From the IMG/VR virus record IMGVR_UViG_3300007540_000128, positions 1 to 22,311 of that record: a DNA stretch of 22,311 bases; one strand, 5' to 3'. This document shows positions 123 to 18,848 of the stretch, piece after piece. Within the stretch, counting starts at the first letter, position 1; each line of letters begins with the position of its first letter. A program made the position numbers and the translations under genes. The DNA is from a virus. Below the pieces are notes generated by a model. It did not search any database and was not told where the DNA came from. It was given only the letters and a program-made list of their open reading frames with translations.

Positions 123-557
123 CTATCTATAATATATATGATCTTCTATTGTTGTAATGTACTCTCTATTCCATGCTGGGTCAACGTCCACTGAATGATA
201 GAACGTAGCACCATCCACTACATTGATTGTTAAACCATATGAATAGTACACCTCCTCTGCTATAGACACTGCTCTATTCCATGAGCGTTGGTCTTTAGGT
301 ACGTCAGGCTTACCATCACAGTACCAACTGAACTGGCATCTGTTCCTGATAGGATAGTCCTGCTTCCAACTGTATGTTGGCCCTTCACGTATGACATCGC
401 ACACTGTATCAGGCCATGCAGGATGGTGCACCCTGTTCAGTACGACATAGGCTACTGCCATCTGTCCCACTGTAGGTTGATCACGTGCCTCAAAGTAAAT
501 GTTCTGGGCAAGGCACGTAATCGTAGCACCTACTGCAAGTATACTAGCGTCCAGCAT
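123..557 (-). CDS. SleB-type cell wall hydrolase
   Basis: Predicted peptidoglycan hydrolase of the SleB/Hydrolase_2 type, 144 residues, the usual size of a single catalytic domain. Visible family features are NIYFEARDQP with the likely catalytic Glu23, the following helix GQMAVAYVVLNRV (31-43), CQFSWYCDG (74-82) and ATFYHS with a downstream PAWN (117-130). Residues 5-17 are mildly hydrophobic; a clear signal peptide is not visible. The start at 557 is chosen because AAAAGG lies five bases upstream. An alternative ATG at 581 has no ribosome site and would lengthen the overlap with the previous gene from 14 to 38 bp. The gene sits in the leftward arm, away from the right-arm lysis cassette, so it may act in exit or in late release; which one cannot be told from sequence. 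Confidence 0.85.
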   Translation of the reverse strand: MLDASILAVGATITCLAQNIYFEARDQPTVGQMAVAYVVLNRVHHPAWPDTVCDVIREGPTYSWKQDYPIRNRCQFSWYCDGKPDVPKDQRSWNRAVSIAEEVYYSYGLTINVVDGATFYHSVDVDPAWNREYITTIEDHIYYR

Positions 558-771
558 TTCTGCCTTTTCTACCTCTAGCATTATCTAGTAGTGTCTGCAC
601 ATCTTCCTCCTCTTGTTGGTGTAGGCAAGGTGGTACTTTACCTTTCCTGTGGTTAAAGAATACATAGCTAGGCTCACCTTGCAGGTTCATCCTACGCTGG
701 TACTGTACAGGGCATCTGTCTAGCCATTCATAGAACTCTGCCTGTGTTTGTATGTCCCACTGTTGGCCCAT
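544..771 (-). CDS. Small phage protein with EWLDxCP motif
   Basis: A 75-residue protein containing FYEWLDRCP near residue 13-21, then a basic segment, an aromatic strand (YVFF) and an acidic EEED patch near the C-terminus. The same EWLDxCP motif followed by an aromatic strand occurs in the 55-residue protein at 2337-2504, so the two look like divergent paralogues. I do not know the function. The ATG at 771 lies 1 bp after the stop of the DUF932-like gene, and the C-terminus overlaps the hydrolase start, consistent with translational coupling along one leftward operon. Confidence 0.7.
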   Translation of the reverse strand: MGQQWDIQTQAEFYEWLDRCPVQYQRRMNLQGEPSYVFFNHRKGKVPPCLHQQEEEDVQTLLDNARGRKGRNAGR

Positions 772-772
772 A

Positions 773-1651
773 TCAGGCAGCCATCTCTAAAAATGATGGG
801 TGTTCTACCCACTTGGCTACCTCTAGGTTGCGGTTAAACTGACGCTGTACCTGAGTATCGTTGTTAGTCTTACGAAACTCAAACCTGTCACTATGAGTAG
901 CGTACTGTGTCATAGCTGAATACACAGCCCACATGTTACAGCCACGTGTGTTTAGTTCTTCTAGTACAGAGTGAAAACTCTTATCTGCCTTACGTTTAGG
1001 CATCATGGAATCTAGCATAGGCTCTATTGCACTGAGACATACTTCCTTCTCAGCTAAACTCTGACACCACGCATTGTGCTCACTGTATCCAGTAATCATA
1101 CCACCTGCCTTATCAGCAAAGGTAGACAGGTCAAAGTTCTTTGTGTTTCTTTTCTTCAACACAGAGTAGTCACCTGTCACCATACCATTCGTACAGAAGA
1201 AATCTATCAGCCCACCAACAAAGTTGTTAGACGTACTGCCATTAACACTGTGCCAGTAGTTCAGTTGCATAGCTGTCTCTGTCTTATGCTTCTTAGTTTC
1301 AACCACACCTTTGAGGTCAGGAAAGGTAACTGTTTCCAATGCCCATGCCCCATTACCTGCTGTCCTAGTCTTGATGTCATACTTATCAGGTTGCAGTGTG
1401 TTCATCCACTGCTCACGCATCTTACCAAAGTAATCTGGATGTGACGTACCAGTGTAGGTACTATTGACCATACCAATACATTCATCTGTGTCAGTACGAA
1501 TAACATACTTGTGTTTGTCTGATCTCTCTGTAGTTACATAGTCTACGTCAAACTCTGCATGTCCATATGTGTTCATCATGTTACTGTCCAATCTGTTGTG
1601 TTTGTTGTTTTGCTCTACGTAACTTACGCCTCTCGCGTTTCCAATCGTCAC
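773..1651 (-). CDS. DUF932-like phage/plasmid protein
   Basis: About 292 residues from the GTG at 1651, or 268 from ATG-ATG at 1579. The body resembles DUF932 proteins of phages and plasmids: an N-terminal beta-rich part, a central IDFFCTNGMVTGD stretch (about 150-162) and a C-terminal helical part with NMWAVYSAMTQYATH (about 239-253). The molecular role of this family is unknown to me; members are often found among phage early genes. Neither start has a convincing Shine-Dalgarno. The GTG start places the gene 2 bp after the upstream stop, typical for this operon, while the sequence before residue 25 is polar and low in conserved character. Family assignment is by pattern recognition and needs a profile search. 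Confidence 0.72.
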   Translation of the reverse strand: MTIGNARGVSYVEQNNKHNRLDSNMMNTYGHAEFDVDYVTTERSDKHKYVIRTDTDECIGMVNSTYTGTSHPDYFGKMREQWMNTLQPDKYDIKTRTAGNGAWALETVTFPDLKGVVETKKHKTETAMQLNYWHSVNGSTSNNFVGGLIDFFCTNGMVTGDYSVLKKRNTKNFDLSTFADKAGGMITGYSEHNAWCQSLAEKEVCLSAIEPMLDSMMPKRKADKSFHSVLEELNTRGCNMWAVYSAMTQYATHSDRFEFRKTNNDTQVQRQFNRNLEVAKWVEHPSFLEMAA

Positions 1652-1653
1652 GT

Positions 1654-1833
1654 TTAGGTTTCGGTGTTGTTAATTTTGTTATACGCATCTTTTGATATTG
1701 TGACTGAGACTGCATCCTCTCGTCCTTTCTTTCTATTGTATGAACCTTTACCCTTCTTACTGGGTATGACCTGAGTACGAGGACGGTTACGAGCTACTGC
1801 CTTTGCTACTGGATTTACTCTACGTATTCTCAT
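1654..1833 (-). CDS. Small Arg/Lys-rich phage protein (MRxRRxNP type)
   Basis: A 59-residue basic protein beginning MRIRRVNPVAKAVARNRPRT, followed by IPSKKGKGSYNRKKGR and an ordinary C-terminal tail. Short proteins opening with this Arg-Asn-Pro-x-Ala-Lys pattern and ending in KKxxxSRK-like clusters are common in tailed phages; their function is not known to me. The start at 1833 is preferred because AGGGA lies eight bases upstream; the ATG at 1842 would overlap that site. A GTCCAA-type dyad (1871-1884) lies in the leader. The charge suggests nucleic acid binding, which is inference only. Confidence 0.68.
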   Translation of the reverse strand: MRIRRVNPVAKAVARNRPRTQVIPSKKGKGSYNRKKGREDAVSVTISKDAYNKINNTET

Positions 1834-1870
1834 AACCACCATCCCTATACTCAGATCACTTAATTGTTAA

Positions 1871-1884
1871 GTCCAATGTTGGAC
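1871..1884. promoter_or_regulatory. GTCCAA-NN-TTGGAC dyad, copy 1
   Basis: GTCCAATGTTGGAC: two 6-bp inverted half-sites around a TG centre. It lies between the stop at 1892 and the start at 1833 on the minus strand. It is one of seven related copies, all in the left arm or the intergenic region. The likely use is binding of a dimeric regulator; this is inference from symmetry and repetition. Confidence 0.65.
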
Positions 1885-1891
1885 CTAATTA

Positions 1892-2098
1892 CTAGGCAAC
1901 AAACCTGCCTGTCTTACCATCACGTACACCTTGCACCATGTCCTTGTGGATGAAAGGAATACTTCTACCTTTGTACACCTGATACAACCTACCTCGTGTA
2001 TCACCACCTGATGCAGTAGCTTTGTTGTCTGCTTCCACTATGCTTCTAGCGTTAGTGATGCGGTTAACTCTTACGATAAGTGTTGATGTTGTAGCCAT
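1892..2098 (-). CDS. Hypothetical 68-residue protein
   Basis: Begins MATTSTLIVRVNRITNARSI and ends GKTGRFVA. The pattern is beta-strand rich with scattered basic residues and looks like a compact soluble domain. I do not recognise the family. The start has a good ribosome site (AGGAGATTATTAAA before ATG) and its own promoter directly upstream (2130-2158), so it probably begins a transcription unit inside the leftward arm. Confidence 0.72.
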   Translation of the reverse strand: MATTSTLIVRVNRITNARSIVEADNKATASGGDTRGRLYQVYKGRSIPFIHKDMVQGVRDGKTGRFVA

Positions 2099-2129
2099 TT
2101 TAATAATCTCCTATGTTAATTATACGATT

Positions 2130-2158
2130 AATATATTATTGTTTGTTAATAGTGTCAA
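2130..2158 (-). promoter_or_regulatory. Sigma70-type promoter, minus strand
   Basis: On the minus strand, TTGACA (2153-2158) is followed by a 17-bp spacer and TATATT (2130-2135), five of six matches to the -10 consensus. It points at the gene starting at 2098, about 32 bp away. The -35 box overlaps the stop codon of the upstream gene. The block CTTGACACT is identical in two other minus-strand promoter candidates (near 4856 and 5452). Confidence 0.68.
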
Positions 2159-2340
2159 GTAGTAATATCAATGTGCTTGCCTAGCCCCTCCTTTGATGGT
2201 TGTACAGTGTCCTTCTTTTCCAGTGGTACAGGTGCTCCTGTCTCTGGTTTGTGTGCATGACTGATCTTGTCCTTGTGTCTCAGTACATTGCTGATCGTGT
2301 CATATGCCAGTGAACTGTTACCTATATGATCTGTACTCAT
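2155..2340 (-). CDS. Hypothetical 61-residue protein
   Basis: A polar protein, MSTDHIGNSSLAYDTISNVL followed by Lys/His/Pro-rich sequence; the second half looks disordered. No domain is recognised. Its ATG overlaps the stop of the preceding gene as ATGA (2337-2340), indicating coupled translation. The stop codon lies in the -35 region of the next promoter, so this is probably the last gene of the methyltransferase sub-operon. Confidence 0.65.
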   Translation of the reverse strand: MSTDHIGNSSLAYDTISNVLRHKDKISHAHKPETGAPVPLEKKDTVQPSKEGLGKHIDITT

Positions 2341-2504
2341 TCCGCATCCTTCTCTCGTTTATCTACTCGTATGATATAGTATCTACCATTCTCAAACTCT
2401 GTCTCTATGTTGGTAGGGCATTCATCCAACCATTCCTGTACAGTTTGTTTAGCTTTAAGATCATTGTAGATCTTGGTGAAGTGTTCTCTACTACCTATTT
2501 GCAT
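2337..2504 (-). CDS. Small EWLDxCP protein (paralogue-like)
   Basis: A 55-residue protein starting MQIGSREHFTKIYNDLKAKQ, then VQEWLDECP, then an acidic/aromatic strand RYYIIRVDKRE. The EWLDxCP core matches the 75-residue protein at 544-771. The start is set by a TAATG overlap with the methyltransferase stop at 2504; a longer frame to 2561 has no support because it lies inside the methyltransferase gene. Function unknown. Confidence 0.7.
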   Translation of the reverse strand: MQIGSREHFTKIYNDLKAKQTVQEWLDECPTNIETEFENGRYYIIRVDKREKDAE

Positions 2505-3436
2505 TATAATAATCCTTTCAGTATATGGGCTATCACATCCACAGTGAAGCCATTGCCACATATTTTGTAGCGTTGTGTATTGGACACACCCTCTGTGTAT
2601 CCGGAAGGCAGGGTTTGTAATCGTTCACACTCAAGAGGTGTCAGCTTACGCCAACTCATATCCTGTGTGTACACCTTTGGTTCACGATGACCACCACCCA
2701 TAGTGGTAAGCGTAGGTGCTTTGCCTTCTCTGTGATAGACACGCTTCAAGCTGTCGATACCTTTCAGGTTAGCCTCACCGACATGGCACAGGCCATCCTT
2801 ACTGAATACCAACTGTCTTCTGTGCTTCTCAAAGTATGTCTTGAGATTACCACCCTTCCAGTAGTTAGCGTCAAGGCAGAAAGACTTATCTCTGTCCACA
2901 CAACCATCCTCTAGTATGTCCTTAAGCATGATACCCTTGTCCTCTGGCAGACCTGACTGTGGTATGTTAGTCCAGTATAGTCTACGTCTATTCTGTGCTG
3001 ACACAAGACTGCTGTTGATCTCGATAGGTTCCACACCTAGATGCTGACTGATGACATCCTGATACTCCTGTTTCATAGGTACATTCTCAAACAGAAACCA
3101 CTTAGGTTTGAGTAGGTTTTTGATACGTACTATCTCCCAAAAAACCTGACCACGTGGATCGTCAAAGCCCTTACCTTTACCTGCCACAGAAAATGAGGGA
3201 CAAGGAAACCCACCTGCCATGAAGTCAATGGGATCACCATTGAATGAGTGCAGATCTACGTTGTGGATGTCACCTAACTGCTGTGTGTCTGACCAGTTCT
3301 TTTGTGTTACCTTGATAGCCCACTTGTCTAGCTCACTGGCATAGTACCTGTAGGTTGGTGCTAGTACACCTGCCCTGACCATAGCTTCCTGTAACATAGA
3401 CCCACCATCACATGCTGAAAATACTGTATTAATCAT
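2504..3436 (-). CDS. DNA (cytosine-5) methyltransferase
   Basis: A 310-residue enzyme that should transfer a methyl group from S-adenosylmethionine to C5 of cytosine in DNA. Motif I region is FSACDGGSMLQEAM (6-19). The catalytic motif IV is FPCPSFS with Cys79, followed by GKGKGFDDPRG. Motif VI is FENV (116-119) and motif VIII is QNRRR (148-152). A target-recognition region follows, then LTPLECERLQTLP and GNGFTVDVIAHI at the C-terminus (motifs IX-X). All core catalytic features are present. The start at 3436 overlaps the upstream stop as ATGA; an upstream in-frame start would lie inside that gene. No restriction nuclease is nearby, so it is an orphan enzyme, likely for self-protection against host restriction or for epigenetic control. 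Sequence specificity cannot be read. Confidence 0.93.
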   Translation of the reverse strand: MINTVFSACDGGSMLQEAMVRAGVLAPTYRYYASELDKWAIKVTQKNWSDTQQLGDIHNVDLHSFNGDPIDFMAGGFPCPSFSVAGKGKGFDDPRGQVFWEIVRIKNLLKPKWFLFENVPMKQEYQDVISQHLGVEPIEINSSLVSAQNRRRLYWTNIPQSGLPEDKGIMLKDILEDGCVDRDKSFCLDANYWKGGNLKTYFEKHRRQLVFSKDGLCHVGEANLKGIDSLKRVYHREGKAPTLTTMGGGHREPKVYTQDMSWRKLTPLECERLQTLPSGYTEGVSNTQRYKICGNGFTVDVIAHILKGLL

Positions 3437-3570
3437 TTTGCTTTTACCTCGCTCCAACCATTAAACCTAGTCCATGCTATATCAATAGCTTCTTCTTCTG
3501 TATAGCCCTCTGCCATGAGGTCATCAACTATGTCCTCTAGCTGGCTTGCTATCTGTGGATGTAAACTCAT
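3433..3570 (-). CDS. Small acidic protein upstream of the methyltransferase
   Basis: A 45-residue ORF: MSLHPQIASQLEDIVDDLMA, then EGYTEEEAIDIAWTRFNGW and a short basic tail. It is acidic and helical, resembling a small UBA- or CUE-like helical bundle in pattern only. It overlaps the 81-residue gene upstream and the methyltransferase downstream, both through ATGA, which strongly supports translation. It might partner the methyltransferase; that is speculation from position. Confidence 0.72.
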   Translation of the reverse strand: MSLHPQIASQLEDIVDDLMAEGYTEEEAIDIAWTRFNGWSEVKAK

Positions 3571-3812
3571 ACGTTATCTCCTATTGCTACGTCTAACTCT
3601 GTCTCTATCCATACTCTAGCACCACAAGGCAATGGGTTATCTGGTCTGTACACTATGGATGCCAACACCTCGCCATCCTCACTGAGCATATCTATCCTGT
3701 CACCATACAGTGTATCGTGATCACCTTGTGCTCTCAATACAGGCAACCTGTCCTTAGGTTCCCTATGTATGTTGCTACGTATATTGCCCTGATTAACATG
3801 TAATATATTCAT
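3567..3812 (-). CDS. Conserved phage hypothetical (MNILHVNQxxIRSN type)
   Basis: An 81-residue beta-rich protein starting MNILHVNQGNIRSN, with a middle stretch LPVLRAQGDHDTLYGDRI and a C-terminal VYRPDNPLPCGARVWIETE. Small proteins with this N-terminus and the RPDxPLxCGARVWIET ending recur in many tailed phages, but I know of no assigned function. A ribosome site GGAG lies before the ATG, and a GTCCAA dyad (3833-3846) stands 20 bp upstream of it. It begins the run of ATGA-coupled genes that leads into the methyltransferase. Confidence 0.75.
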   Translation of the reverse strand: MNILHVNQGNIRSNIHREPKDRLPVLRAQGDHDTLYGDRIDMLSEDGEVLASIVYRPDNPLPCGARVWIETELDVAIGDNV

Positions 3813-3832
3813 TGTACTTTCTCCAATGTTAG

Positions 3833-3846
3833 GTCCAATGTTGGAC
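3833..3846. promoter_or_regulatory. GTCCAA-NN-TTGGAC dyad, copy 2
   Basis: GTCCAATGTTGGAC, identical to copy 1, in the short gap between the Gp88-like gene stop and the start at 3812. The bases around it, TTAG on the left and TTAG on the right, also recur around copy 3. It lies 20 bp upstream of the start codon, so a bound protein or RNA fold here could affect both transcription and initiation. Confidence 0.65.
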
Positions 3847-4512
3847 TTAGTGAGATGATAAGTGAACTGTTACTCGCTTGCCTATAGTAGTCTGACTAAA
3901 GCATCCTGCCTTACATACAGCACAATGTCCAGACATTTTCTTCCATGTCTTAGGACACTTGAATGCTTCACCTTTCTCTGCATACTTGGTATCATCACCA
4001 AAGTACATAATGTTCCAGCCATCAGCAATCAAACTGTCCTCTTCCTCCTGTGTATTGGATGGATCAAGTGACGCATTGAGAGCTATGTTTGGAATAGGGA
4101 ATAGCTCTATCTGTATCAGTTCACGTAGCAATGTATTACGCCATGCTCGTGTTGGTATCCACCATGTAGTATCTGGAGTAGCCAATGCTATGTCCTTCAC
4201 ACGATAAATATCGGACAGATCCTTGATAGCTTCGCCTCTAGTCATATGTCTAGCACGTTTAGTCTGCTTCTTTTTACGTGACAGATAGGTACGCACCGCA
4301 TTGCCAGACACCTGCATCCACTCACGTTCACAACGTTCGTCACGTTTGCCCATGTTAGGATACATCCTGTATAGCTTGACGTTGTAACAGGTATCATCAC
4401 AGAAACTAGTCCGATGATCACAAGATCCTTTCACAGATCCTACATCATTGATTGGCCTATCGCTGGCGAACATGCCTATGTCATCACAGTAACGAAATAA
4501 ATCCTTAATCAT
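3847..4512 (-). CDS. Gp88-like cysteine-rich phage protein
   Basis: A 221-residue protein with two cysteine clusters: C31, C38, C42 followed by Tyr (CDHRTSFCDDTCY) near the N-terminus, and C186, C197, C200, C204 (KCPKTW...CAVCKAGCF) near the C-terminus. The middle contains MTRGEAI and a segment of alternating hydrophobic strands and helices. This two-cluster layout matches the Gp88-like family found in many actinobacterial and proteobacterial phages; its function is unknown to me, though the cysteines suggest metal or iron-sulfur binding. The ATG at 4512 is separated by one base from the stop of the 29-residue gene upstream, so translation is probably coupled. Confidence in gene is high, in family moderate. 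Confidence 0.7.
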   Translation of the reverse strand: MIKDLFRYCDDIGMFASDRPINDVGSVKGSCDHRTSFCDDTCYNVKLYRMYPNMGKRDERCEREWMQVSGNAVRTYLSRKKKQTKRARHMTRGEAIKDLSDIYRVKDIALATPDTTWWIPTRAWRNTLLRELIQIELFPIPNIALNASLDPSNTQEEEDSLIADGWNIMYFGDDTKYAEKGEAFKCPKTWKKMSGHCAVCKAGCFSQTTIGKRVTVHLSSH

Positions 4513-4513
4513 T

Positions 4514-4603
4514 TTAGTTATCCCTAAAGCAAGTTACAATTAAACCTAATGCTACTACAAACCAACAGATAGCTAGTATCTGTAATGTGTTAAGTTCTTC
4601 CAT
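4514..4603 (-). CDS. 29-residue single-span membrane peptide
   Basis: MEELNTLQILAICWFVVALG followed by LIVTCFRDN: a short acidic N-terminus, a hydrophobic segment at about 8-25, and a charged end. The ribosome site CGGAG precedes the ATG by eight bases. The leader (CGGAGTGAATAAC) is nearly the same as the one before the gene at 4787. The stop lies one base before the next ATG. Size, ribosome site and spacing support a real membrane peptide; its role is unknown. Confidence 0.65.
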   Translation of the reverse strand: MEELNTLQILAICWFVVALGLIVTCFRDN

Positions 4604-4604
4604 G

Positions 4605-4787
4605 TTATTCACTCCGATGTTTTGCTTTTAGCTTTACCACCTGCCTGAATACTCTTTCAAACTCAGGATGTTGGCTGTTTCGCACAGATAAATTACGCAC
4701 TAACCACATCACATTATCAAGATTATTTGTATCCCTTCTCATGGTTGGTACATCCATACTGTCAGGTATTATAGTCATTGTATTCAC
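4605..4787 (-). CDS. Hypothetical 60-residue protein
   Basis: Starts MNTMTIIPDSMDVPTMRRDT and continues with a helical, basic C-terminal half rich in Arg, Val and Lys. No family recognised. The ATG has CGGAG eight to nine bases upstream. Its leader carries, in transcript order, the minus-strand promoter and hairpin element A (4825-4878), then a perfect GTCCAACGTTGGAC palindrome (4799-4812), so it heads a regulated unit that may include the Gp88-like gene. Confidence 0.65.
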   Translation of the reverse strand: MNTMTIIPDSMDVPTMRRDTNNLDNVMWLVRNLSVRNSQHPEFERVFRQVVKLKAKHRSE

Positions 4788-4798
4788 TCCGATGTTAG

Positions 4799-4812
4799 GT
4801 CCAACGTTGGAC
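4799..4812. promoter_or_regulatory. GTCCAACGTTGGAC perfect palindrome, copy 3
   Basis: A fully symmetric 14-bp palindrome with CG at the centre, 11 bp upstream of the ATG at 4787 and just downstream of the promoter candidate at 4831-4859. It sits where a bound repressor would block transcription or early elongation. Confidence 0.7.
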
Positions 4813-4824
4813 TTAGTTAAGATC

Positions 4825-4878
4825 TATCTAAGTAATATATACTTTTACTAAAGTGTCAAGTATATATTACGTAAGATA
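4825..4878 (-). repeat. Hairpin element A (inverted repeat with conserved loop)
   Basis: A perfect 13-bp inner stem (4832-4844 with 4858-4870) encloses a 13-nt loop. Outside it is an internal loop (AA at 4830-4831 facing GTA at 4871-4873), then a 5-bp outer stem (4825-4829 with 4874-4878). The loop holds ACTAAAGT. Element B at 6118-6178 has the same layout, the same internal loop and nearly the same apical loop but different stem sequences that still pair. It overlaps the promoter at 4831-4859. Confidence 0.75.
4831..4859 (-). promoter_or_regulatory. Promoter candidate inside hairpin element A
   Basis: On the minus strand TTGACA (4854-4859) lies 16 bp before TATTAC (4832-4837), or 17 bp before ATTACT; the -10 match is only fair. 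The nine-base block CTTGACACT is identical to that of two other minus-strand candidates. The spacer contains ACTTT-N4-AAAGT, a small dyad repeated in element B. It would serve the genes from 4787 leftward. Confidence 0.5.
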
Positions 4879-4890
4879 TATCTAAAGTGA

Positions 4891-5301
4891 TTATGCTCTG
4901 TTGAAATACTCAATACCTACCCAATCCTTAACCTTACGTTGATGGGCAATTTCCCTAACTCCATTTTCAAACAGAGTTTGTTCCCAATCATAGAAACCTC
5001 CATAAGAGTTGCCACCTGCATCAGCTAACCAACGCAATACATCCTGCCGACTAGTCGTAGGACTGACTAATGTCTCAATCCTACCTATGAGATTGTACAT
5101 GCTTTGCTCACTACGCTCTCGGTCTTCCTCCTCCTGCTCTGTGAGAGTGGCAACCAACCCATCCCAATGCTCATTAAACTGAGCATCAGACATGCTACGA
5201 ACCCATTCCATCGTGTGTGCCAGAGGCCTACATCCCCATACATCCTTGTGCAAATCGCTGTAGCAATCCATGAGTTCATCTCGTGATACTTCGTCAGTCA
5301 T
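4891..5301 (-). CDS. Conserved phage hypothetical (YSDxHKDVxGxRP type)
   Basis: A 136-residue acidic, helical protein. Residues 8-27 carry ELMDCYSDLHKDVWGCRP, a signature shared by many short phage proteins (Tyr-Ser-Asp-x-His-Lys-Asp-Val-x-Gly-x-Arg-Pro). An EQEEEDRERSEQ acidic helix follows near 53-64, and the C-terminal half (TSRQDVLRWLADAGGNS, YDWEQTLFENGVREIAH) is helical. Function unknown to me. The ATG overlaps the upstream stop as ATGA (5298-5301), with GGAG seven bases upstream, and a perfect GTCCAACGTTGGAC palindrome lies 19 bp upstream, within the preceding gene. Confidence 0.78.
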   Translation of the reverse strand: MTDEVSRDELMDCYSDLHKDVWGCRPLAHTMEWVRSMSDAQFNEHWDGLVATLTEQEEEDRERSEQSMYNLIGRIETLVSPTTSRQDVLRWLADAGGNSYGGFYDWEQTLFENGVREIAHQRKVKDWVGIEYFNRA

Positions 5302-5528
5302 TTTTTATCTCCATTGTTTTGTCCAACGTTGGACTTGATTTGCTTTGCCTTCATACGTAATTGCGACCATTTGTGGTCACGCTTGGCCTTTGCAAAGGCA
5401 TCAGCCATAGCTTGCTCTTGACCTATTCTATATACCAAAGGCACTTTAGTGTCAAGATCGGGAACTTCATTGATCCAATGAGATCTCAAAGGAGTATGAG
5501 ATCCCATAGGGATTATGTGTCTTGTCAT
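5298..5528 (-). CDS. Hypothetical 76-residue basic protein
   Basis: Starts MTRHIIPMGSHTPLRSHWIN and has a Lys/Arg-rich C-terminal half (AFAKAKRDHKWSQLRMKAKQ). No family recognised. It overlaps both neighbours, by TAATG at 5528 and ATGA at 5298-5301, so it is part of the first leftward operon after the 189-residue gene. Its coding sequence contains a promoter candidate (5427-5455) and a GTCCAACGTTGGAC palindrome (5321-5334); the palindrome is translated as part of KSNVGQ. Confidence 0.68.
   Translation of the reverse strand: MTRHIIPMGSHTPLRSHWINEVPDLDTKVPLVYRIGQEQAMADAFAKAKRDHKWSQLRMKAKQIKSNVGQNNGDKK
5321..5334. promoter_or_regulatory. GTCCAACGTTGGAC perfect palindrome, copy 4
   Basis: A fully symmetric 14-bp palindrome identical to copy 3, lying inside the end of the 76-residue gene and 19 bp upstream of the ATG at 5301. 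Its retention inside coding sequence argues that the DNA or RNA site itself is selected. Confidence 0.68.
5427..5455 (-). promoter_or_regulatory. Sigma70-type promoter, minus strand, intragenic
   Basis: On the minus strand TTGACA (5450-5455), a 17-bp spacer and TATAGA (5427-5432). It shares CTTGACACT with the promoters near 2155 and 4856. It lies within the 76-residue gene and would direct transcription across the palindrome at 5321-5334 into the 136-residue gene. Confidence 0.6.
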
Positions 5529-6097
5529 TAGGCTACCTCACTTTCTGCTACTGAATTATCAGTAGATGTTGCACTATCAATCAACATTTCTACAACTTGT
5601 TGTAGGTCAATGTTATGCTTCTTAGCAGTAGCTAAAACATTTGCTACAATGCTTTCAGCATTTACGTTAGAGGTTGAAGTATCATCATCACCATCACTTT
5701 CAGTGCTAGGTCCATCGTTGGACTTATCGGCTTTCTTCATTGCTGACTGCAAAGCAGTTAATGATGTGAAGCCTTTCTTTGAGGCTTTGATTGCTTCTAA
5801 ACAATCATCTTGATTGTCAAAGAACCACATAGCTTCTGATCGTCTTCTCTTATCAATATTGGCTATGCCAACATCTCTAAGTCTAGCTGATGTAACCTTG
5901 CCATTTTCACCAACCTCATCTCGTAGAGATCGCATTAGCTTACCTAATCGGTAATCCAATCCATCCTTAGAGATGGAGATCTTGAACCTCTTCTTCAAAG
6001 AAGCCTGTTCATTCTTGTACATCTTAGCTAAAGCTAAACCTTCACTCTCTAGAGTGTCTACTGATGGGATGATTGCTATTGCTGTTGAGGTTGTCAT
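5528..6097 (-). CDS. Hypothetical 189-residue protein, first gene of the leftward operon
   Basis: Starts MTTSTAIAIIPSVDTLESEG. Residues 30-110 are basic and helical (KKRFKISISKDG, RLGKLMRSLRDEVGENG, RLRDVGIANIDKRRRSEAMW), a DNA-binding-like composition without a helix-turn-helix I can name. An acidic Ser/Asp-rich linker follows (about 128-147), then a helical C-terminal segment. The ATG at 6097 is chosen because the frame upstream of it is inside hairpin element B and has no supported start. Two GTCCAA-type dyads lie upstream and one (5710-5723) lies within the gene, a layout typical of an autoregulated regulator. Whether this protein binds those sites is inference. Confidence 0.7.
   Translation of the reverse strand: MTTSTAIAIIPSVDTLESEGLALAKMYKNEQASLKKRFKISISKDGLDYRLGKLMRSLRDEVGENGKVTSARLRDVGIANIDKRRRSEAMWFFDNQDDCLEAIKASKKGFTSLTALQSAMKKADKSNDGPSTESDGDDDTSTSNVNAESIVANVLATAKKHNIDLQQVVEMLIDSATSTDNSVAESEVA
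5710..5723. promoter_or_regulatory. GTCCATCGTTGGAC dyad, copy 5 (intragenic)
   Basis: GTCCATCGTTGGAC has one mismatched pair relative to the perfect palindrome and lies inside the coding sequence of the 189-residue protein, within the acidic linker (translated SNDG). It may be a weaker auxiliary site or a chance similarity helped by codon choice. Confidence 0.45.
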
Positions 6098-6103
6098 TTC
6101 TTT

Positions 6104-6191
6104 TCTCTCTTTCTTTCTACTGTTTCTAAGTGTTATTACTTTCACTAAAGTATAAGTAATAACACGTAAGAAACAGTAAAGAAAGAAGAGA
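6104..6191 (-). repeat. Hairpin element B in the leader of the 189-residue gene
   Basis: The core is a perfect 12-bp inner stem (6130-6141 with 6154-6165) around a 12-nt loop, an internal loop (AA 6128-6129 facing GTA 6166-6168) and a perfect 10-bp outer stem (6118-6127 with 6169-6178). With a 2-nt and a 1-nt bulge, pairing continues for about 12 more base pairs out to 6104 and 6191, and that outermost part includes the purine tract that should serve as ribosome site for the ATG at 6097. Architecture and loop match element A. Confidence 0.78.
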
Positions 6192-6225
6192 GAGTTTGGT
6201 GGGGTAAATCGGTGACAAAAACTGT

Positions 6226-6277: not shown

Positions 6278-6291
6278 GTCCAACATTGGAC
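6278..6291. promoter_or_regulatory. GTCCAACATTGGAC dyad, copy 6
   Basis: Two perfect GTCCAA/TTGGAC half-sites around CA, the reverse complement of copies 1 and 2. It lies between the nested hairpin and copy 7, about 180 bp upstream of the ATG at 6097, in the leader or promoter zone of the leftward operon. Confidence 0.65.
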
Positions 6292-6989: not shown

Positions 6990-7187
6990 ATGATAGTTAG
7001 AGAACCAGTATTGATACGTATTTACTACTACCTGCCTGATTATAGTAGTTTAGTGCAGGAATTTATGTGGGGTACTATGGACATTATTCCAGAATACCCA
7101 CGTATTAATAAATTTTTAAACTATTGGCATGAAAATATAGACGCTGTAATAGCCAGTATTGACATTGACCCATATAAAGGAGTATAA
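6990..7187 (+). CDS. Usg-like protein
   Basis: A 65-residue protein whose body matches the Usg family known from Alphaproteobacteria: YYYLPDYSSLVQEFMWGTMD, then IPEYP, then KFLNYWHENIDAVIASIDI. The family pattern is Tyr-x-x-Pro-Asp-x-x-x-Leu-Leu-Gln-x-Phe-x-Trp, Asp-x-x-Pro-x-x-Pro, Lys-Phe-Leu-x-x-Trp and a final Ser-Val/Ile strand; all are present. The molecular function of Usg is not established to my knowledge. The start at 6990 is chosen because it follows the upstream stop by one base; the frame upstream of it overlaps the membrane gene. It is followed 3 bp later by another membrane protein gene. Confidence 0.72.
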   Translation: MIVREPVLIRIYYYLPDYSSLVQEFMWGTMDIIPEYPRINKFLNYWHENIDAVIASIDIDPYKGV

Positions 7188-7190
7188 TCT

Positions 7191-7377: not shown

Positions 7378-7581
7378 ATGAGAAAAGAAGTAAAACTATA
7401 CAAAGAAAGAGTATTAGAGTCATTTTATGACGCAATAACAAATAAAACATTAAAGTATCTACACGTACCCCATAGCAAAGTGTTTTATGTACGTGCTGCA
7501 ATAGAAAAACGTACAGGTATTAGGTATAGTTTAGAACATATAGAAAATGCTATGGTACTTGAAGGATGGAAAGATGGCTAA
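7378..7581 (+). CDS. Hypothetical 67-residue protein
   Basis: Starts MRKEVKLYKERVLESFYDAI and includes KVFYVRAAIEKRTGIRYSLE and HIENAMVLEGWKDG. The helix pattern with a basic recognition-like segment is compatible with a small winged or helix-turn-helix fold, but I cannot name a family. No Shine-Dalgarno is visible before the ATG at 7378 and a TTG at 7339 would give a longer version. The C-terminus overlaps the next gene by 8 bp. Confidence 0.6.
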   Translation: MRKEVKLYKERVLESFYDAITNKTLKYLHVPHSKVFYVRAAIEKRTGIRYSLEHIENAMVLEGWKDG

Positions 7582-7846
7582 AACTCCTGCATGGACACGT
7601 AAGGCTGGTAAGAGTAAATCTGGTGGTCTGAATAAAAAAGGCGTAGCCTCATATCGTAAAGAAAATCCCAACTCTAAATTAAAGATGGCTGTAACTGGTA
7701 AAGTTAAAAAGGCATCAGCCGATGCTAAAAGACGTAAATCATTTTGTGCTAGAATGAAAGGCATGAAGAAACGCTTAACGAGTGCCAAGACTGCTCGTGA
7801 TCCTAACTCAAGGATCAATAAGTCTTTGAGGAAATGGAGATGTTAA
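7574..7846 (+). CDS. Conserved phage protein, DUF6321-like
   Basis: A 90-residue basic protein beginning MAKTPAWTRKAGKSKSGGLN, then KKGVASYRKENP, SFCARMKGMKKRLTSAKTA and a C-terminal DPNSRINKSLRKWRC. The order of PAWTRKxGKxxxGGLNxKG, SFCARMxGMKKxLT and DPNSRINKSLRKW is strongly conserved in phages and some larger viruses and corresponds, as I recall, to DUF6321. The role is unknown to me; the basic charge fits DNA or RNA contact. The ATG at 7574 has GGATGGAAAG upstream; an in-frame start at 7547 would add ten residues outside the conserved part. Confidence 0.85.
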   Translation: MAKTPAWTRKAGKSKSGGLNKKGVASYRKENPNSKLKMAVTGKVKKASADAKRRKSFCARMKGMKKRLTSAKTARDPNSRINKSLRKWRC

Positions 7847-7847
7847 A

Positions 7848-8669
7848 ATGGTAGCGAAAGCAATAGCCAAAGCAGTCACGAGATCTGCTGGTAAGAAACT
7901 AACAAAGAAAAAAAGATCCGAAACTGCTGAACAAAAAACTAAGCGATTAATAAAATTAGATTCTGATATAAAGAAAGTAAAAGCATTACGCGAAAAAGAG
8001 TTAAAGCGTATACGTGCTGAAAAAGCAGTGGTAAAAAAGAAAGCCTCTACACAAAAAGGTATGATAGGTTCTGGTGCTAGATCAGCAAAAGGTAAAGGTG
8101 CAAAAGGTTCACAACGAGCATATGATGCAGAACCTATGAGAGCTGCTAATGATGCCAAAGTTACAGATTTATCCGTAAGTAAAGGACAGAAAGGTAAGAT
8201 TACCACAGGCAAAGATGCTCCTATGCATAAGCAACTGCAAACTAAAGCACAGAAAAATAGAGTTGCAAAATATTTAGAGTTAAAGAAAAAACAAAGAGAT
8301 GGTACACTAACAGCAGAAGATAAGCGATGGTTGAAATCCGATGCTGCATATGAAGCAGAAAGATTACGTAGATCTGGTCAAGGCTCTAGAAATAAAAGAG
8401 CAGACTCTCCTAGCAAAGCAGGTAGAAAAACTTCTGCACAAAGAAAGAGGAGTTTAGATTTACCTCCGTTAAAAGGTGAAAAGAAAACTGTACGTACCAA
8501 AGATGATATGGGCGATCCATCTACAGGTGAAGTTACAAGCAAGACAACTGCAAACAGAGCAGCTGCATTAGCTCGTAGTGCAGATAGAAAAGCAGAAGTA
8601 GATAGAATAGATAGAAAAACTAAACGAAGCAGAAAAAGAAATGTAAGAGAAATGAAAAGGAGAAAGTAA
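7848..8669 (+). CDS. Lysine-rich hypothetical protein
   Basis: A 273-residue, very basic, low-hydrophobicity protein, opening MVAKAIAKAVTRSAGKKLTK and with repeated Lys/Arg runs to its end (KRSRKRNVREMKRRK). A central helical block (KYLELKKKQRDGTLTAEDKR) is the only segment with ordered character. No domain is recognised. It starts two bases after the stop of the DUF6321-like gene. The composition suggests nucleic acid binding, possibly a protein packaged with DNA; that is inference. It does not carry the double-glycine motif of the next genes. Confidence 0.75.
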   Translation: MVAKAIAKAVTRSAGKKLTKKKRSETAEQKTKRLIKLDSDIKKVKALREKELKRIRAEKAVVKKKASTQKGMIGSGARSAKGKGAKGSQRAYDAEPMRAANDAKVTDLSVSKGQKGKITTGKDAPMHKQLQTKAQKNRVAKYLELKKKQRDGTLTAEDKRWLKSDAAYEAERLRRSGQGSRNKRADSPSKAGRKTSAQRKRSLDLPPLKGEKKTVRTKDDMGDPSTGEVTSKTTANRAAALARSADRKAEVDRIDRKTKRSRKRNVREMKRRK

Positions 8670-9041
8670 ATGGGACTAGAAGTAGAAATAATGTTACCAC
8701 TAAAATATTATAAAGAACGAATAGCAGAAGCTAAAAAAGCTGGCGATATGAAAAAAGTAAAAAAATTAGAAAGCCAGTTAGAACAAAGAAAAAAAGAAAT
8801 AAATAAACAGGCATCTATGGATCGTAATGCTAGAGCCAATGCTGCTGATTTAAAAGCTGGATCAGCAATGGGTGGTGCAAAACCACCAAAGCCTATGAAA
8901 AAACCAGAAATGATGTATGGTGGTATGGCAAACAATAAGAAGCATATGTACTCAGCAGGAGGATCGGTTAAAGATAATCCCGGTCTGAAAGCATTAGCAA
9001 AGCAACGACCAGATGTAGTTGCTAAAATGATGAAAGGATAA
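8670..9041 (+). CDS. Small coiled-coil protein with double-glycine motifs
   Basis: A 123-residue protein: an N-terminal charged helix (YYKERIAEAKKAGDMKKVKK and EQRKKEINKQ) likely to coil, then a Gly/Ala/Pro/Met-rich part with MMYGGMA and MYSAGGSVKDNPG, ending LAKQRPDVVAKMMKG. The start at 8670 has a perfect AAGGAG upstream. The Tyr-x-x-GG motif recurs in the next two small proteins and in the 637-residue protein at 16005. Function unknown; proteins with this motif accompany virion genes in similar phages as far as I recall. Confidence 0.75.
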   Translation: MGLEVEIMLPLKYYKERIAEAKKAGDMKKVKKLESQLEQRKKEINKQASMDRNARANAADLKAGSAMGGAKPPKPMKKPEMMYGGMANNKKHMYSAGGSVKDNPGLKALAKQRPDVVAKMMKG

Positions 9042-9048
9042 ATACAAT

Positions 9049-9180
9049 ATGCCTATGCACAAGAAAACAAAGAAAATGTCTAAGGGTGGAGCCACTAAGA
9101 AAATGTATGGTGGTGGAATGGGTATGGGTAAAAAGGGTACAAAGAAGTACTCTAAAGGTGGAGCTGCTAAACGTAGATAA
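9049..9180 (+). CDS. 43-residue Gly/Lys-rich peptide with three GG motifs
   Basis: Starts MPMHKKTKKMSKGGATKKMY, continues GGGMGMGKKG and ends KKYSKGGAAKRR. It is almost entirely Lys, Gly, Met and Ser, with SKGG, MYGGG and YSKGG repeats. GGATAAATACAAT before the ATG is an acceptable ribosome site, and the stop overlaps the next start as TAATG. No fold is expected. Its conserved-looking spacing and coupling support translation. It shares its motif with the flanking small proteins. Confidence 0.68.
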   Translation: MPMHKKTKKMSKGGATKKMYGGGMGMGKKGTKKYSKGGAAKRR

Positions 9181-9899
9181 TGCCTAATCTTATAAGCAAT
9201 GTACCCCACTTTAATTGTTGGGTACGTAGAGAGTTCACTAGTAACCATCAAAAGTATCACGGTGAATTTCTACATGGGATTGCATTTGCAGTAAATACCA
9301 TACCAGACAGATCACTTAGCTTTCAGGTTGTATTTACTGGATGTGAGATAGACAGGGAAGATGGACCTCAAGAGAATGTACATGGAGGAGCTATGTGGGC
9401 AAGGATGCCGATACAGGCACTCGTAGCTGACATACCTCTAGAAGAGTGGCCTGACCCAATGGAAGATCATTTATGCCAACCTTGGGATTGTGAGTCACGA
9501 GAGCATGGTACAGTCATTCTGGATAGAGTAAGTTCATCACCTTGGTTGTGTAAGATAGGAGGTGATCTCTATACAGGTAAATACTTATTTACCGTAGATT
9601 ACACAGGCAATGATATAGCAGATGATCCTGCACAGCATAAACAGTCACACGTAATATATTTAACAGATGCTGGTAGCTGGACAGGAAACTTTGTAGCACT
9701 GCCTAACAATAGAGTAAGGGCAACTAGCCCTGCTCTATGGAGAACTGGAGAGGGTGCACCTGACTTTGTACCGTCACAATGGGTGCACTCAGCAGAAGGA
9801 CATGAGACATACTTAGATCCATCTGTAACATTTAATAATCTATACGCAAAGGACACTAGGAAAAATGCCAGTAAAAAGAAAAGTAAGAAAACTAAGTAA
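9180..9899 (+). CDS. Conserved phage protein of unknown function, 239 residues
   Basis: A soluble, beta-rich protein opening MPNLISNVPHFNCWVRREFT, with HGEFLHGIAFAV, QVVFTGCE, ENVHGGAMWARMPIQALV, QPWDCES, PSPWLCKIGG-like SSPWLCKIGGDLYTGKYLFT, ADDPAQHKQSHVI and ALPNNRVRATSPA. I recall this whole set, in this order, as a conserved protein lying just upstream of the lysis and packaging genes in many marine-type phages; no function is known to me. The C-terminal 20 residues are Lys-rich (NASKKKSKKTK). The TAATG overlap with the previous gene supports the start. It may be a virion component; a structure prediction would test that. Confidence 0.85.
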   Translation: MPNLISNVPHFNCWVRREFTSNHQKYHGEFLHGIAFAVNTIPDRSLSFQVVFTGCEIDREDGPQENVHGGAMWARMPIQALVADIPLEEWPDPMEDHLCQPWDCESREHGTVILDRVSSSPWLCKIGGDLYTGKYLFTVDYTGNDIADDPAQHKQSHVIYLTDAGSWTGNFVALPNNRVRATSPALWRTGEGAPDFVPSQWVHSAEGHETYLDPSVTFNNLYAKDTRKNASKKKSKKTK

Positions 9900-10074
9900 G
9901 GGTGGTAGCACAGTAAACGCAGCAGGTAACTATACACAGCCCGGTATGCGTAAGAGATTATTCAATAGTATTAAGGCGAGTGGAAAAGGTGGTGCTCCGG
10001 GGCAATGGTCAGGACGCAAAGCCCAGATGTTAGCAAAAAGATACAAGGCAAAAGGTGGAGGTTACAAATCATAA
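9865..10074 (+). CDS. Conserved small phage protein (KGGxxGQWSxRKAQ type)
   Basis: A 69-residue basic protein: MPVKRKVRKLSKGGSTVNAA, then GNYTQPGMRKRLFNSIKASG, then KGGAPGQWSGRKAQMLAKRY and an ending KAKGGGYKS. The core NYTxPxMRKRLFxxIKAxxKGGxxGQWSxRKAQxLAxxYxxxGGGY is very widely conserved in phages; its function is unknown to me. The gene starts inside the last 35 bp of the previous gene with AGGAAAA upstream, and its stop overlaps the next start as TAATG. It contains one LSKGG copy of the double-glycine motif. Confidence 0.84.
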   Translation: MPVKRKVRKLSKGGSTVNAAGNYTQPGMRKRLFNSIKASGKGGAPGQWSGRKAQMLAKRYKAKGGGYKS

Positions 10075-10202
10075 TGACATGTGAATGTGGAGAAGAGCCA
10101 GTATGCATGTGTAATGTAGAGTCAGAATCTAAATGCGATAGTTGCATAGAGTGTGGCTGTAATCCAGATGTATGTAAATGTGAGTGTCATGGCAAGAGCT
10201 AA
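10074..10202 (+). CDS. Cysteine-rich metallothionein-like peptide
   Basis: A 42-residue peptide with 11 cysteines at positions 3, 5, 11, 13, 21, 24, 27, 29, 34, 36 and 38, plus His39: MTCECGEEPVCMCN, then KCDSCIECGCN, then VCKCECHGKS. The CxC, CxxC and CxCxC spacing and lack of aromatic residues resemble metallothioneins, which bind Zn, Cu or Cd through Cys clusters. Its acidic, Cys-dense make-up is unlike any neighbour. The start is set by the TAATG overlap with the previous gene and the stop lies 14 bp inside the next gene, so it fits the operon. Homology to a known family is not claimed; the function is inferred from composition. Confidence 0.7.
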   Translation: MTCECGEEPVCMCNVESESKCDSCIECGCNPDVCKCECHGKS

Positions 10203-10437
10203 GTCACAACAGAGTCTGGCAAACTGGACAAAGCAGGATTGGCGTACTAAGTCAGGTAAGCCATCTACACAGGGACCAAAGGCTACAGGTGAAAGGTATT
10301 TACCTGCTAAAGCTATTAAGTCACTATCATCTTCTGAGTATGCTGCTACTACCAAAGCTAAACGTGCAGGTAACAAACAACATGTAAAACAACCAAAGGG
10401 CATAGCTAAGAAGACAGCTAGGTTTAGGAGAGCTTAA
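10189..10437 (+). CDS. Conserved small phage protein (WTKQxWRTxSGKPS...RYLPxKAI type)
   Basis: An 82-residue basic protein: MARAKSQQSLANWTKQDWRT, SGKPS, then GERYLPAKAIKSLSSSEYAA, TTKAKRAGNKQHVKQPKGIA and KKTARFRRA. The order of these segments is well conserved in many phages and some giant viruses; function unknown to me. It starts inside the end of the Cys-rich gene (14-bp overlap) and its stop overlaps the holin start as TAATG. Its neighbour two genes upstream, the KGGxxGQWS protein, often travels with it, suggesting a linked role. Confidence 0.84.
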   Translation: MARAKSQQSLANWTKQDWRTKSGKPSTQGPKATGERYLPAKAIKSLSSSEYAATTKAKRAGNKQHVKQPKGIAKKTARFRRA

Positions 10438-10817
10438 TGCTAGGTGCAATAATAGGACCAGTAGCTAATCTAGCTGGTACATGGCTAGAGGGACAGGTTG
10501 CTGAGAAGAAAGCTAAAACAGAAGCTAAGATTGTAACAATAAGATCTGACGCTAAGATAAAAGAGAAACAGGCAGCAGGTGAAATAGACTGGGATATAGC
10601 ACAGGCTAAAGCGAGTGATAACTCGTGGAAAGACGAGTGGCTTACAATTTTGTTCTCGATACCTCTTGTGCTTGCGTTCATTCCCGGCTGTGAAGATATA
10701 GTTCAAATAGGGTTTAGCCAACTACAACTGATGCCTGAGTGGTATAAGTATGCCATTTCGGTAATCGTGGCAGCGTCATTTGGGGTACGTAGTGCCACTA
10801 AGCTATTTAAAAAATAA
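10437..10817 (+). CDS. Three-helix holin, GTA_holin_3TM-like
   Basis: A 126-residue membrane protein. Residues 1-18 form a hydrophobic/amphipathic helix, a charged helix runs to about 60, then SWKDEWLTI (63-71) leads into a span at about 69-84 ending in FIPG, and a second span lies at about 104-117 (YAISVIVAASFGVR). The SWKDEW...PLVLxFIPG...PEWYxYAxxxxxAASFGxR layout matches the holins of gene transfer agents and related phages (GTA_holin_3TM). It should form the membrane lesion that lets lysozyme reach peptidoglycan. It heads a lysis cassette with the next membrane protein and the GH24 lysozyme. Start fixed by a TAATG overlap. Confidence 0.85.
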   Translation: MLGAIIGPVANLAGTWLEGQVAEKKAKTEAKIVTIRSDAKIKEKQAAGEIDWDIAQAKASDNSWKDEWLTILFSIPLVLAFIPGCEDIVQIGFSQLQLMPEWYKYAISVIVAASFGVRSATKLFKK

Positions 10818-10829
10818 GGAGTAATAAAC

Positions 10830-11048
10830 ATGGCAGATGAAAATGTAATTGTTGACAAAGCAGCATATCAATCTAACAGACGCTATATGGCATGGACTGC
10901 ACTCGCTACAATGCTTATAGCTACTACTGCTGTACTAATATGGCCTGACAGGTTTGCAGCAGCAGACAGTATTCTTATGATGATGTATGGTTCATTGTCT
11001 GCACTTGTTGGTGCATACTTTGGCTTTGCAATGCCTAAGAAGAAATAG
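10830..11048 (+). CDS. Two-span membrane protein, likely holin or antiholin
   Basis: A 72-residue protein with spans at about 20-38 (MAWTALATMLIATTAVLIW) and 48-67 (ILMMMYGSLSALVGAYFGFA), separated by a short periplasmic or cytoplasmic loop PDRFAAADS, and a basic C-terminus (MPKKK). The clear AAGGAG ribosome site and a 12-bp gap after the 3TM holin place it in the lysis cassette. Such two-span proteins commonly serve as holin partners or antiholins. The next gene starts directly after its stop. Confidence 0.78.
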   Translation: MADENVIVDKAAYQSNRRYMAWTALATMLIATTAVLIWPDRFAAADSILMMMYGSLSALVGAYFGFAMPKKK

Positions 11049-11540
11049 ATGAAGTACGATACTAGCAAATTACTTGACATGCTTATCAGAGATGAAGGCA
11101 TGGAACTAAAGGTCTATAAAGATACATTAGGTATAGACACAATAGGTGCAGGTAGAAATTTAAAAGATAGACCCTTGACTGTTAGACAATTGCAACACTT
11201 GGGTCTGTCTGATATGCAGGACATTTATGACAATGGAATTACCCTTTACGGTGCTAGATATATATTGCGTATTGATGTTGACATTGCTGAACGAGAACTC
11301 CTTGATGCTCATCCTTGCGTTAAAAATTTAAATGCACCACGGCAAATGGTTTGTGTCAATATGGCATTTAACTTGGGTATGCCACGTTTAAATAAGTTTA
11401 AAAAGATGTGGTCTGCTATAGAAGATGAGGACTATAATAATGCAGCAGTTGAGATGTTAGACAGTAGGTGGGCAGAGCAGGTAAAAGGCAGGGCTACAAG
11501 ATTGAGTGACATAATGCGAACTGGGGAATTAAATGACTAG
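11049..11540 (+). CDS. GH24 (T4-type) lysozyme, endolysin
   Basis: A 163-residue muramidase that cleaves the N-acetylmuramic acid-N-acetylglucosamine bond of peptidoglycan. The catalytic segment is DEGMELKVYKDTLGIDTIG with Glu16, Asp25 and Thr31 in the T4-lysozyme Glu-8x-Asp-5x-Thr spacing, followed by GAGRNL. The C-terminal lobe includes QMVCVNMAFNLGMPRLNKF and WAEQVKGRATRLSDIM, usual for the family. No signal peptide or SAR segment is evident, so release through the neighbouring holins is expected. It overlaps the terminase small subunit gene by 8 bp, so lysis and packaging genes share one transcript. Confidence 0.93.
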   Translation: MKYDTSKLLDMLIRDEGMELKVYKDTLGIDTIGAGRNLKDRPLTVRQLQHLGLSDMQDIYDNGITLYGARYILRIDVDIAERELLDAHPCVKNLNAPRQMVCVNMAFNLGMPRLNKFKKMWSAIEDEDYNNAAVEMLDSRWAEQVKGRATRLSDIMRTGELND

Positions 11541-11907
11541 ACAGTACACAGAAAATCAGGTAAAATTCCTAGATGTACTATTTGATGAAGCAGGTGGGGA
11601 TGTAGCAACAGCTAAGAAACTAGCTGGCTATGCAGATGGTACATCTACTACAGTGGTAGTTAAGAGCCTCAAGGAAGAGATACTAGAAGCAACACAGCAG
11701 TACATGGCACGTAATGCCCCTAAAGCTGCTGTAGCGATGGCTGGTGCACTCCTAGACCCTACTGAGTTAGGACTAAGAGATAAGATGTCAGCAGCAAAGG
11801 AACTACTGGATCGTACTGGGCTGGTTAAAACTGAGAAGCTACAGGTAGAAGCAAGTGGTGGTGTGATGTTAATGCCACCTAAGAAACAAAGTGATGATGA
11901 CGATTAA
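11533..11907 (+). CDS. Terminase small subunit
   Basis: A 124-residue protein placed directly before the large subunit region. It opens MTRQYTENQVKFLDVLFDEA with a helix-turn-helix-like region (GGDVATAKKLAGYADGTSTT), then a long helical part (EEILEATQQYMARNAPKAAV, LLDPTELGLRDKMSAAKELL) and an acidic tail ending SDDDD. This layout, DNA-binding N-terminus, oligomerising helices and acidic C-terminus, is typical of phage small terminases that recognise packaging sites. Starts in the last 8 bp of the lysozyme gene; its stop overlaps the next start as TAATG. Confidence 0.8.
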   Translation: MTRQYTENQVKFLDVLFDEAGGDVATAKKLAGYADGTSTTVVVKSLKEEILEATQQYMARNAPKAAVAMAGALLDPTELGLRDKMSAAKELLDRTGLVKTEKLQVEASGGVMLMPPKKQSDDDD

Positions 11908-13743: not shown

Positions 13744-13755
13744 GGAAAAAAAATA

Positions 13756-15876: not shown

Positions 15877-15889
15877 CTATCTGGACTCT

Positions 15890-16012
15890 ATGATTGAAAG
15901 TGAAAGAAAAACATTAGAACAATCGATTGACATGGTTACAATGCACAGAGCGCAAGGAGCAATCAGTGCGTACCAAAAGATTAAACAACTAAGGGAACAC
16001 GTAAATGGCTGA
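15890..16012 (+). CDS. 40-residue helical peptide after the portal
   Basis: MIESERKTLEQSIDMVTMHR then AQGAISAYQKIKQLREHVNG: charged, helical and probably coiled-coil. The ATG at 15890 is 13 bp after the portal stop, and the stop overlaps the next gene by 8 bp. The open frame extends upstream into the portal gene, but that part reads as a shadow of the portal tail (Gln/His-rich). Short helical proteins at this position are common in tailed phages; the role is unknown. Confidence 0.65.
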   Translation: MIESERKTLEQSIDMVTMHRAQGAISAYQKIKQLREHVNG

Positions 16013-17918: not shown

Positions 17919-17930
17919 TAAACCACATGT

Positions 17931-17972: not shown

Positions 17973-17987
17973 GAAAGGAAATATAAT

Positions 17988-18842: not shown

Positions 18843-18848
18843 TTAGTG

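Follow-up and report, generated by a model that had tools for sequence, protein, structure and literature searches.

The window analysed here is the complete virus record IMGVR_UViG_3300007540_000128 (22,311 bases), in which two long hairpins, named A and B, lie upstream of two leftward genes. The features of the locus are as follows.

123-6097, minus strand: leftward genes, including those for a cell wall hydrolase, a DUF932 protein, a C5 cytosine methyltransferase and a GP88-like protein
4605-4778, minus strand: gene downstream of hairpin A, 57 aa from its ATG, matching no known family
4799-4812, minus strand: small palindrome GTCCAACGTTGGAC, placed after hairpin A and before the Shine-Dalgarno of the gene that follows; such a palindrome follows most class II hairpins
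4820-4883, minus strand: hairpin A (class II), with outer stem, internal loop, 13-bp inner stem and 13-nt apex, read directly
4845-4857, minus strand: apex of A, sense GACACTTTAGTAA; the family consensus is GA(N)AC-NTTA-GTGA
5528-6097, minus strand: gene downstream of hairpin B, 189 aa, first in the leftward block
6103-6193, minus strand: hairpin B (class I), operon leader, about 36-40 bp overall
6142-6153, minus strand: apex of B, sense ATACTTTAGTGA, the consensus minus one G
1871-1884, 3833-3846, 4799-4812, 5321-5334 and 6278-6291: sites of a 14-nt palindrome
7547-22174, plus strand: rightward genes, including that for the large terminase

A perfect 12/12 sigma-70-type promoter (TTGACA-18-TATAAT) at 7159-7188 on the plus strand faces the rightward genes, and no comparable sigma-70-type site was found in the window ahead of the leftward block. 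ARAGORN called a tRNA-Arg (CCT) at 614-703 on the plus strand, overlapping the leftward frame 544-771; Rfam finds no tRNA there, and the call is probably false.

Written in plus-strand letters, the outer stem of hairpin A pairs TATCT (4825-4829) with AGATA (4874-4878) and is extended by AGAT (4820-4823) with ATCT (4880-4883). An internal loop of AA (4830-4831) opposite GTA (4871-4873) leads to the inner stem of 13 bp (4832-4844 with 4858-4870), which carries the loop TTACTAAAGTGTC (4845-4857); the sense (minus) strand reads ...GTAATATATACTT-GACACTTTAGTAA-AAGTATATATTAC... Hairpin B is built in the same way, with the outer stem TACTGTTTCT (6118-6127) and AGAAACAGTA (6169-6178), AA (6128-6129) opposite GTA (6166-6168), an inner stem of 12 bp (6130-6141 with 6154-6165) and the loop TCACTAAAGTAT (6142-6153). 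This layout had been described in a first-pass annotation of the sequence and was borne out by our direct reading, except that B, which had been delimited at 6118-6178, continues outward as a helix to about 6103-6193, nearly to the start codon at 6097, so that those positions are only its inner part. The Shine-Dalgarno of the gene behind B is within the predicted pairing.

On both strands, none of 200 dinucleotide shuffles folded as well as either hairpin. The z scores of the RNA folds were -4.1 to -4.4 for A (sense -4.1) and -8.4 to -9.1 for B, whose sense strand gave -43.9 kcal/mol (z -8.4), and those of the DNA folds ranged from -3.9 to -10 for the two hairpins. A covariance model scored A at 45.5 bits (E 1.2e-6), the sequence of A being part of the model, and B, which is absent from it, at 37.8 bits. 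The 10-nt loop word by itself is not unusual in the window (11 matches at one mismatch or fewer against 6.5 expected); what is unusual about A and B is the long stem around the loop word, not the word itself.

A family of hairpins in marine phages

A pattern made from the shared loop and the closing pairs matched 103 IMG/VR stretches. About 60-69 distinct elements remained among the matches listed in the loop scans once duplicates were removed; identical copies across contigs were counted once, the distinct copies do not count as phylogenetically independent, and, as most of them were found via the loop, loop conservation is overstated in these sets. Sites with both loop and stem numbered 210 in 1.8 Mb of fetched phage DNA, compared with 0-5 in shuffled copies, and nearly every distinct match is a long hairpin that lies on the sense strand shortly before a start codon. 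Isolated phages carry it too: HMO-2011 has three copies, at 13, at 1213 and, as a class I copy, near 54,112; CRP-1 carries two, at 1003 and, again of class I, at the end of the record; and CRP-345 carries one, of class I. None of these hairpins has a feature annotation in its record. A further group of marine phages, not related to these (L005, L013, L036, L039, L044 and L059), has the hairpin as well; its early genes encode a Mu Gam-like protein, a replication initiator and an exonuclease.

When loci chosen by their GP88 gene were scanned with the covariance model, 32 matches were obtained, all on the sense strand; one HMO-2011 copy that is part of the model is among the 32, and some of the contigs were already known from the loop scans. 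Late-region stretches of the same phage group gave no covariance-model match in 789 kb. We also considered a cellular origin and rejected it: the loop scan of cellular genome contigs returned chance sites only, without stems, and the covariance model found two borderline matches in 592 kb of those loci. No match was found in 289 genomes of the class to which a marine alphaproteobacterial genome belongs, which under the strict filters used is a weak test. Dozens of distinct copies with pairing kept are present in phages, so that neither of the two outcomes named by the first-pass annotation as refuting its proposal came about. We regard A and B as belonging to a probably new family of hairpins that would act in cis.

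The stems differ almost entirely in sequence while remaining paired. Pair counts were taken from sets of equal length, and MAFFT alignments of mixed loop lengths were left out. Among 28 distinct ungapped copies found through the loop, all ten inner pairs were changed on both sides (66 cells), and the covariation score was 0.664; shuffles gave 0.163, and sliding the partner gave no more than 0.25. Because this set had been found through the loop, the count was repeated on copies fetched by their GP88 gene; in 19 distinct rows, whose alignment was fitted to the covariance model and so leans towards it, again 10/10 inner pairs were changed on both sides, with a score of 0.790 against 0.197. The compensating changes that the first-pass annotation took as the sign of a conserved fold are thus seen at every inner pair in both sets. 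B and its HMO-2011 counterpart precede homologous genes, one having an A/T-rich stem (GTGTTATTACTT) and the other a GC-rich one (GGGATAACCCCTT), while class II stems are nearly pure A/T. G.U pairs are almost absent, with 0/280 inner stem cells in the 28-copy set and 1/189 in the 19-row set (1/469 in total); interior stem positions hold 3 G.U and 4 A.C in 902, compared with 31 G.U in 494 for tRNAs from the same loci. Bulges and internal mismatches recur at set places, such as an A bulge on the 3' arm, and the closing pair has lost both members together in HMO-2011 copy 2 and several others. The AA facing GTA, proposed earlier as part of the shared architecture, is present in A and B but is not universal across the family.

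The apical loop, noted before as near-identical in A and B, is indeed conserved, but it holds a small helix of its own. Across the wider variants the sense apex reads GA-(N)-AC, then NTTA, GTA, GAA, ATA, TTA, TTT, GTAA or ACTA, then GT-GA, and more distant copies (CRP-1, CRP-345, L428 and L431) have CC/GG or CCTT/AAGG in place of AC/GT with the same 3' TGA. The mini-helix within the apex therefore covaries as well (AC/GT, CC/GG, CCTT/AAGG), and judging from these sequences the "loop" is most plausibly a 2-bp mini-hairpin set on tandem G.A mismatches.

Placement before early genes

In about 50 of 62 elements, a start codon with a good Shine-Dalgarno follows the end of the loop at 27-80 nt. Two classes can be distinguished. 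Class I hairpins, such as B, stand at the head of an early block and abut the Shine-Dalgarno without a small palindrome, whereas class II hairpins, A among them, mostly occupy intergenic positions, with GTCCAAYRTTGGAC behind them at a distance of 7-10 nt from the Shine-Dalgarno. Most of the intergenic copies have the stop codon of the preceding gene at or within their 5' arm, so that the hairpin fills the gap between two genes of the same direction; in the L003-L180 elements this stop codon tends to lie 9-14 or 20-35 nt before the loop. The genes downstream belong to about 20 or more unrelated families, which argues for a general signal rather than the private operator of one gene; gene-specific autoregulation was rejected on this ground. 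Homologues of the 189-aa gene (5528-6097) are located downstream of class I hairpins with quite different stems in HMO-2011 and seven other loci. A switch that sequesters the Shine-Dalgarno was rejected as the general role, as the Shine-Dalgarno is inside the predicted pairing in only 19 of 54 elements. The 400 nt that precede class I hairpins contained almost no sigma-70-like promoters. Class II copies carry TTGATA and TATNAC separated by 16-18 nt, and class I copies are without these hexamers, so a sigma-70 promoter inside every hairpin was also rejected.

Other elements were noticed near the hairpins. The 14-nt palindrome GTCCAAYRTTGGAC precedes the Shine-Dalgarno of many genes by 7-10 nt even where there is no big hairpin; GTCCN6GGAC occurs at 548 sites in 2.6 Mb of fetched loci, and its fifth pair covaries (A-T 153, G-C 39). 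It gives the impression of a signal in its own right, acting in translation or in the mRNA. Upstream of class I hairpins there is also a second block that is structured and conserved, a candidate origin, ncRNA or promoter region; it lies at L112:23700-24060 (HMO-2011 53.7-54.1 kb), with homologues in L012, L023, L070, L098, L114, L122, L137, L170 and others. It consists of AACTGTTATGGTATCAGTTGCCAT followed by TTTC-(covarying hairpin with a GTA, GAA or TTG loop)-TGCAAYCRC-GAAACGGC-GCAGAGGAT, and has no Rfam match at cut-off. Directly after the first hairpin of HMO-2011, an open frame of about 53 aa with a good Shine-Dalgarno (L111:94-255) is unannotated in GU557055; the hairpins may flag such missed small early genes and help to find them. 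The main early protein common to both unrelated hairpin-carrying groups is a Pyr_excise protein (pyrimidine-dimer-glycosylase-like, phrog_624; L005:9538-10020, L113:4191-4706, L086:5227-5826, L070:7904-8440, L079:12500-13045 and L012:213-803). As a single phage-encoded binder common to all carriers, this type of DNA glycosylase is a poor candidate, and it was not seen in the window.

Possible modes of action

The first-pass annotation proposed that the fold forms either in the RNA of leftward transcripts or as a cruciform in the DNA. Our evidence leads to the same pair of candidates, RNA and DNA, and makes clear which strand is the sense one relative to the genes. We tentatively favour a sense-strand mRNA hairpin, leader or intercistronic, that controls the processing or translation of early genes, and give this reading slightly less than an even chance. 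In HMO-2011-type and other marine phages the hairpins would mark where early gene blocks start, and also certain genes within these blocks; each hairpin would be transcribed and fold as RNA directly upstream of the ribosome-binding site. A factor, which is probably of the host because unrelated phages carry the hairpin, would recognise the conserved apex at the tip of a roughly 14-bp stem, and would process or protect the message or set the translation of the next gene, as RNase III hairpins do in the early leaders of T7 and lambda. The sense-strand bias, the position against the ribosome-binding site and prior plausibility support this reading, and the recurrence of GA/GA and of GNA and NTTA loops in the sense-strand apex was counted for it as well, together with the covariation, the upstream stop codons at the 5' arm, the variety of downstream genes and the 19 of 54 Shine-Dalgarno sequences within the pairing. 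Against it, the Shine-Dalgarno is not sequestered throughout the family, some of the stems are, at 14-17 bp, rather short to be cut by RNase III, and the region upstream of class I is almost devoid of sigma-70-like promoters. The near-absence of G.U also speaks against RNA, because RNA helices should tolerate such pairs, but template-switch repair of the palindromes could explain it.

The palindromes may instead work as DNA hairpins, in cruciforms or on single-stranded phage DNA, and the extruded hairpin may serve as the early promoter or regulate it, as in N4, except that the reader would be the host RNA polymerase or some phage polymerase; we take this possibility seriously while leaning against it. 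Strictly Watson-Crick stems, in which A.C is as rare as G.U, speak for it, as do the nearly pure A/T stems of class II, and the apical mini-loops are of kinds stable in DNA, where GTTA, GTA (GNA) and GAA loops are known to be so. TTTA is a structurally defined type II DNA tetraloop (PMC8037738). The three copies of HMO-2011 head its first three early blocks, just as N4 has three early hairpin promoters, and both the TTGATA-16/18-TATNAC arrangement in class II and the scarcity of sigma-70-like promoters ahead of class I would fit. On the other hand, class I is without promoter hexamers and the register enrichment is weak, and in B and similar class I copies the Shine-Dalgarno is within the stem, so that the RNA would have to start inside the hairpin. 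Nor did the searches turn up a virion RNA polymerase: those virion proteins of HMO-2011 that were tested gave no polymerase match in Pfam, PHROGs or PDB, and a 16-member profile of gp22 found no polymerase in PDB. The AlphaFold model of gp22 is helical and of low confidence (pLDDT 56), so neither profile nor model supports a hidden virion RNA polymerase in this protein. That the hairpins, extruded by supercoiling or formed on single strands, act as DNA early promoters or switches we consider unlikely; hairpin promoters would then have arisen a second time, independently of N4, in one of the most abundant phage groups of the ocean.

Two further explanations concern the palindromes as DNA. Template switching at quasi-palindromes, documented in bacteria (PMC10710837), might keep the arms matched, in which case the covariation would overstate selection and only the apex would be functional, as a protein site on duplex DNA. 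Paired changes without intermediates, as we observed, are what this process would yield, but it would erase the bulges and mismatches that persist at set places (the A bulge on the 3' arm), and it fits poorly with the joint loss of the closing pair in HMO-2011 copy 2 and others and with a mini-helix in the apex that covaries too; we give it little credence. Still less probable is a single-stranded DNA element for replication, recombination or gene shuffling, such as a primosome or single-strand initiation site, an attC-like site or a Rep-nick hairpin. The HMO-2011 group has a tyrosine integrase and a primase, and the hairpins precede non-homologous genes, but such roles do not need the tight placement in the sense direction 27-80 nt before starts, and attC conserves its arms and varies its tip, the reverse of what the family does. 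The mRNA hairpin remains our preferred reading; that the shape is kept while the stem sequences change almost completely points to a shared gene-control signal.

Comparison with known systems

The first-pass annotation inferred that the element was new, and we found no matching element in Rfam or in the literature searched. Rfam release 15 gave no match at the gathering cut-off for the whole window or the hairpins, only sub-threshold ones, those of B to miRNA families being generic long-hairpin matches. The HMO-2011-type genome papers that we checked in the open-licence literature make no mention of promoters, hairpins or palindromes, and neither transcription data nor anything on early-gene control in these phages was found in the sources searched. 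As the literature search was limited to open-licence papers, the family is likely, not certainly, new. HMO-2011-type phages are described as one of the most abundant known ocean virus groups (PMC6918029), and a single easily recognised signal ahead of early genes, common to unrelated phages, gives a direct handle on early control. Were the signal to act as DNA, it would be one of the few natural hairpin promoters; were it to act as RNA, it would add a new type of leader element in phages, with a partner in the host.

The best bacterial or phage Rfam match to the HMO-2011 class I copy is the DUF2815 RNA (RF03084), which also consists of a hairpin followed by a Shine-Dalgarno and ATG; it scored 24.5 bits against a gathering cut-off of 41.2, has a short 7-bp stem and a different loop, and is not among the Rfam matches to A or B. 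The attC sites of integrons are single-strand hairpins with variable stems and conserved bulges. They combine conserved R and L boxes in the arms with a variable terminal structure, whereas the family shows the opposite.

Phage N4 has three early promoters that are DNA hairpins, in which the non-conserved stem bases are free if paired (PMC4496689). Like these promoters of the N4 virion RNA polymerase, the present family consists of covarying inverted repeats with few conserved apex bases, located ahead of early units, three per genome in HMO-2011; covarying stem-loops at the head of early transcription units are found in both. The dimensions differ: N4 hairpins have a 5-7 bp stem and a 3-nt loop centred at -11, with the start site at the hairpin base, while those of the family have inner stems of 12-14 bp plus outer stems and an apex of 11-14 nt, outside the N4 stem and loop sizes.

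The RNase III hairpins of T7 and lambda are long and imperfect and lie between early genes, just upstream of ribosome-binding sites. The family is similarly long, intercistronic and upstream of the ribosome-binding site in early operons. The near-continuous duplex of about 20 bp or more associated with RNase III is reached in many copies, including B and the HMO-2011 class I copy, while L005-type copies have 14-17 bp. The T7 and lambda hairpins differ from the family in being without a conserved apical loop and in allowing G.U.
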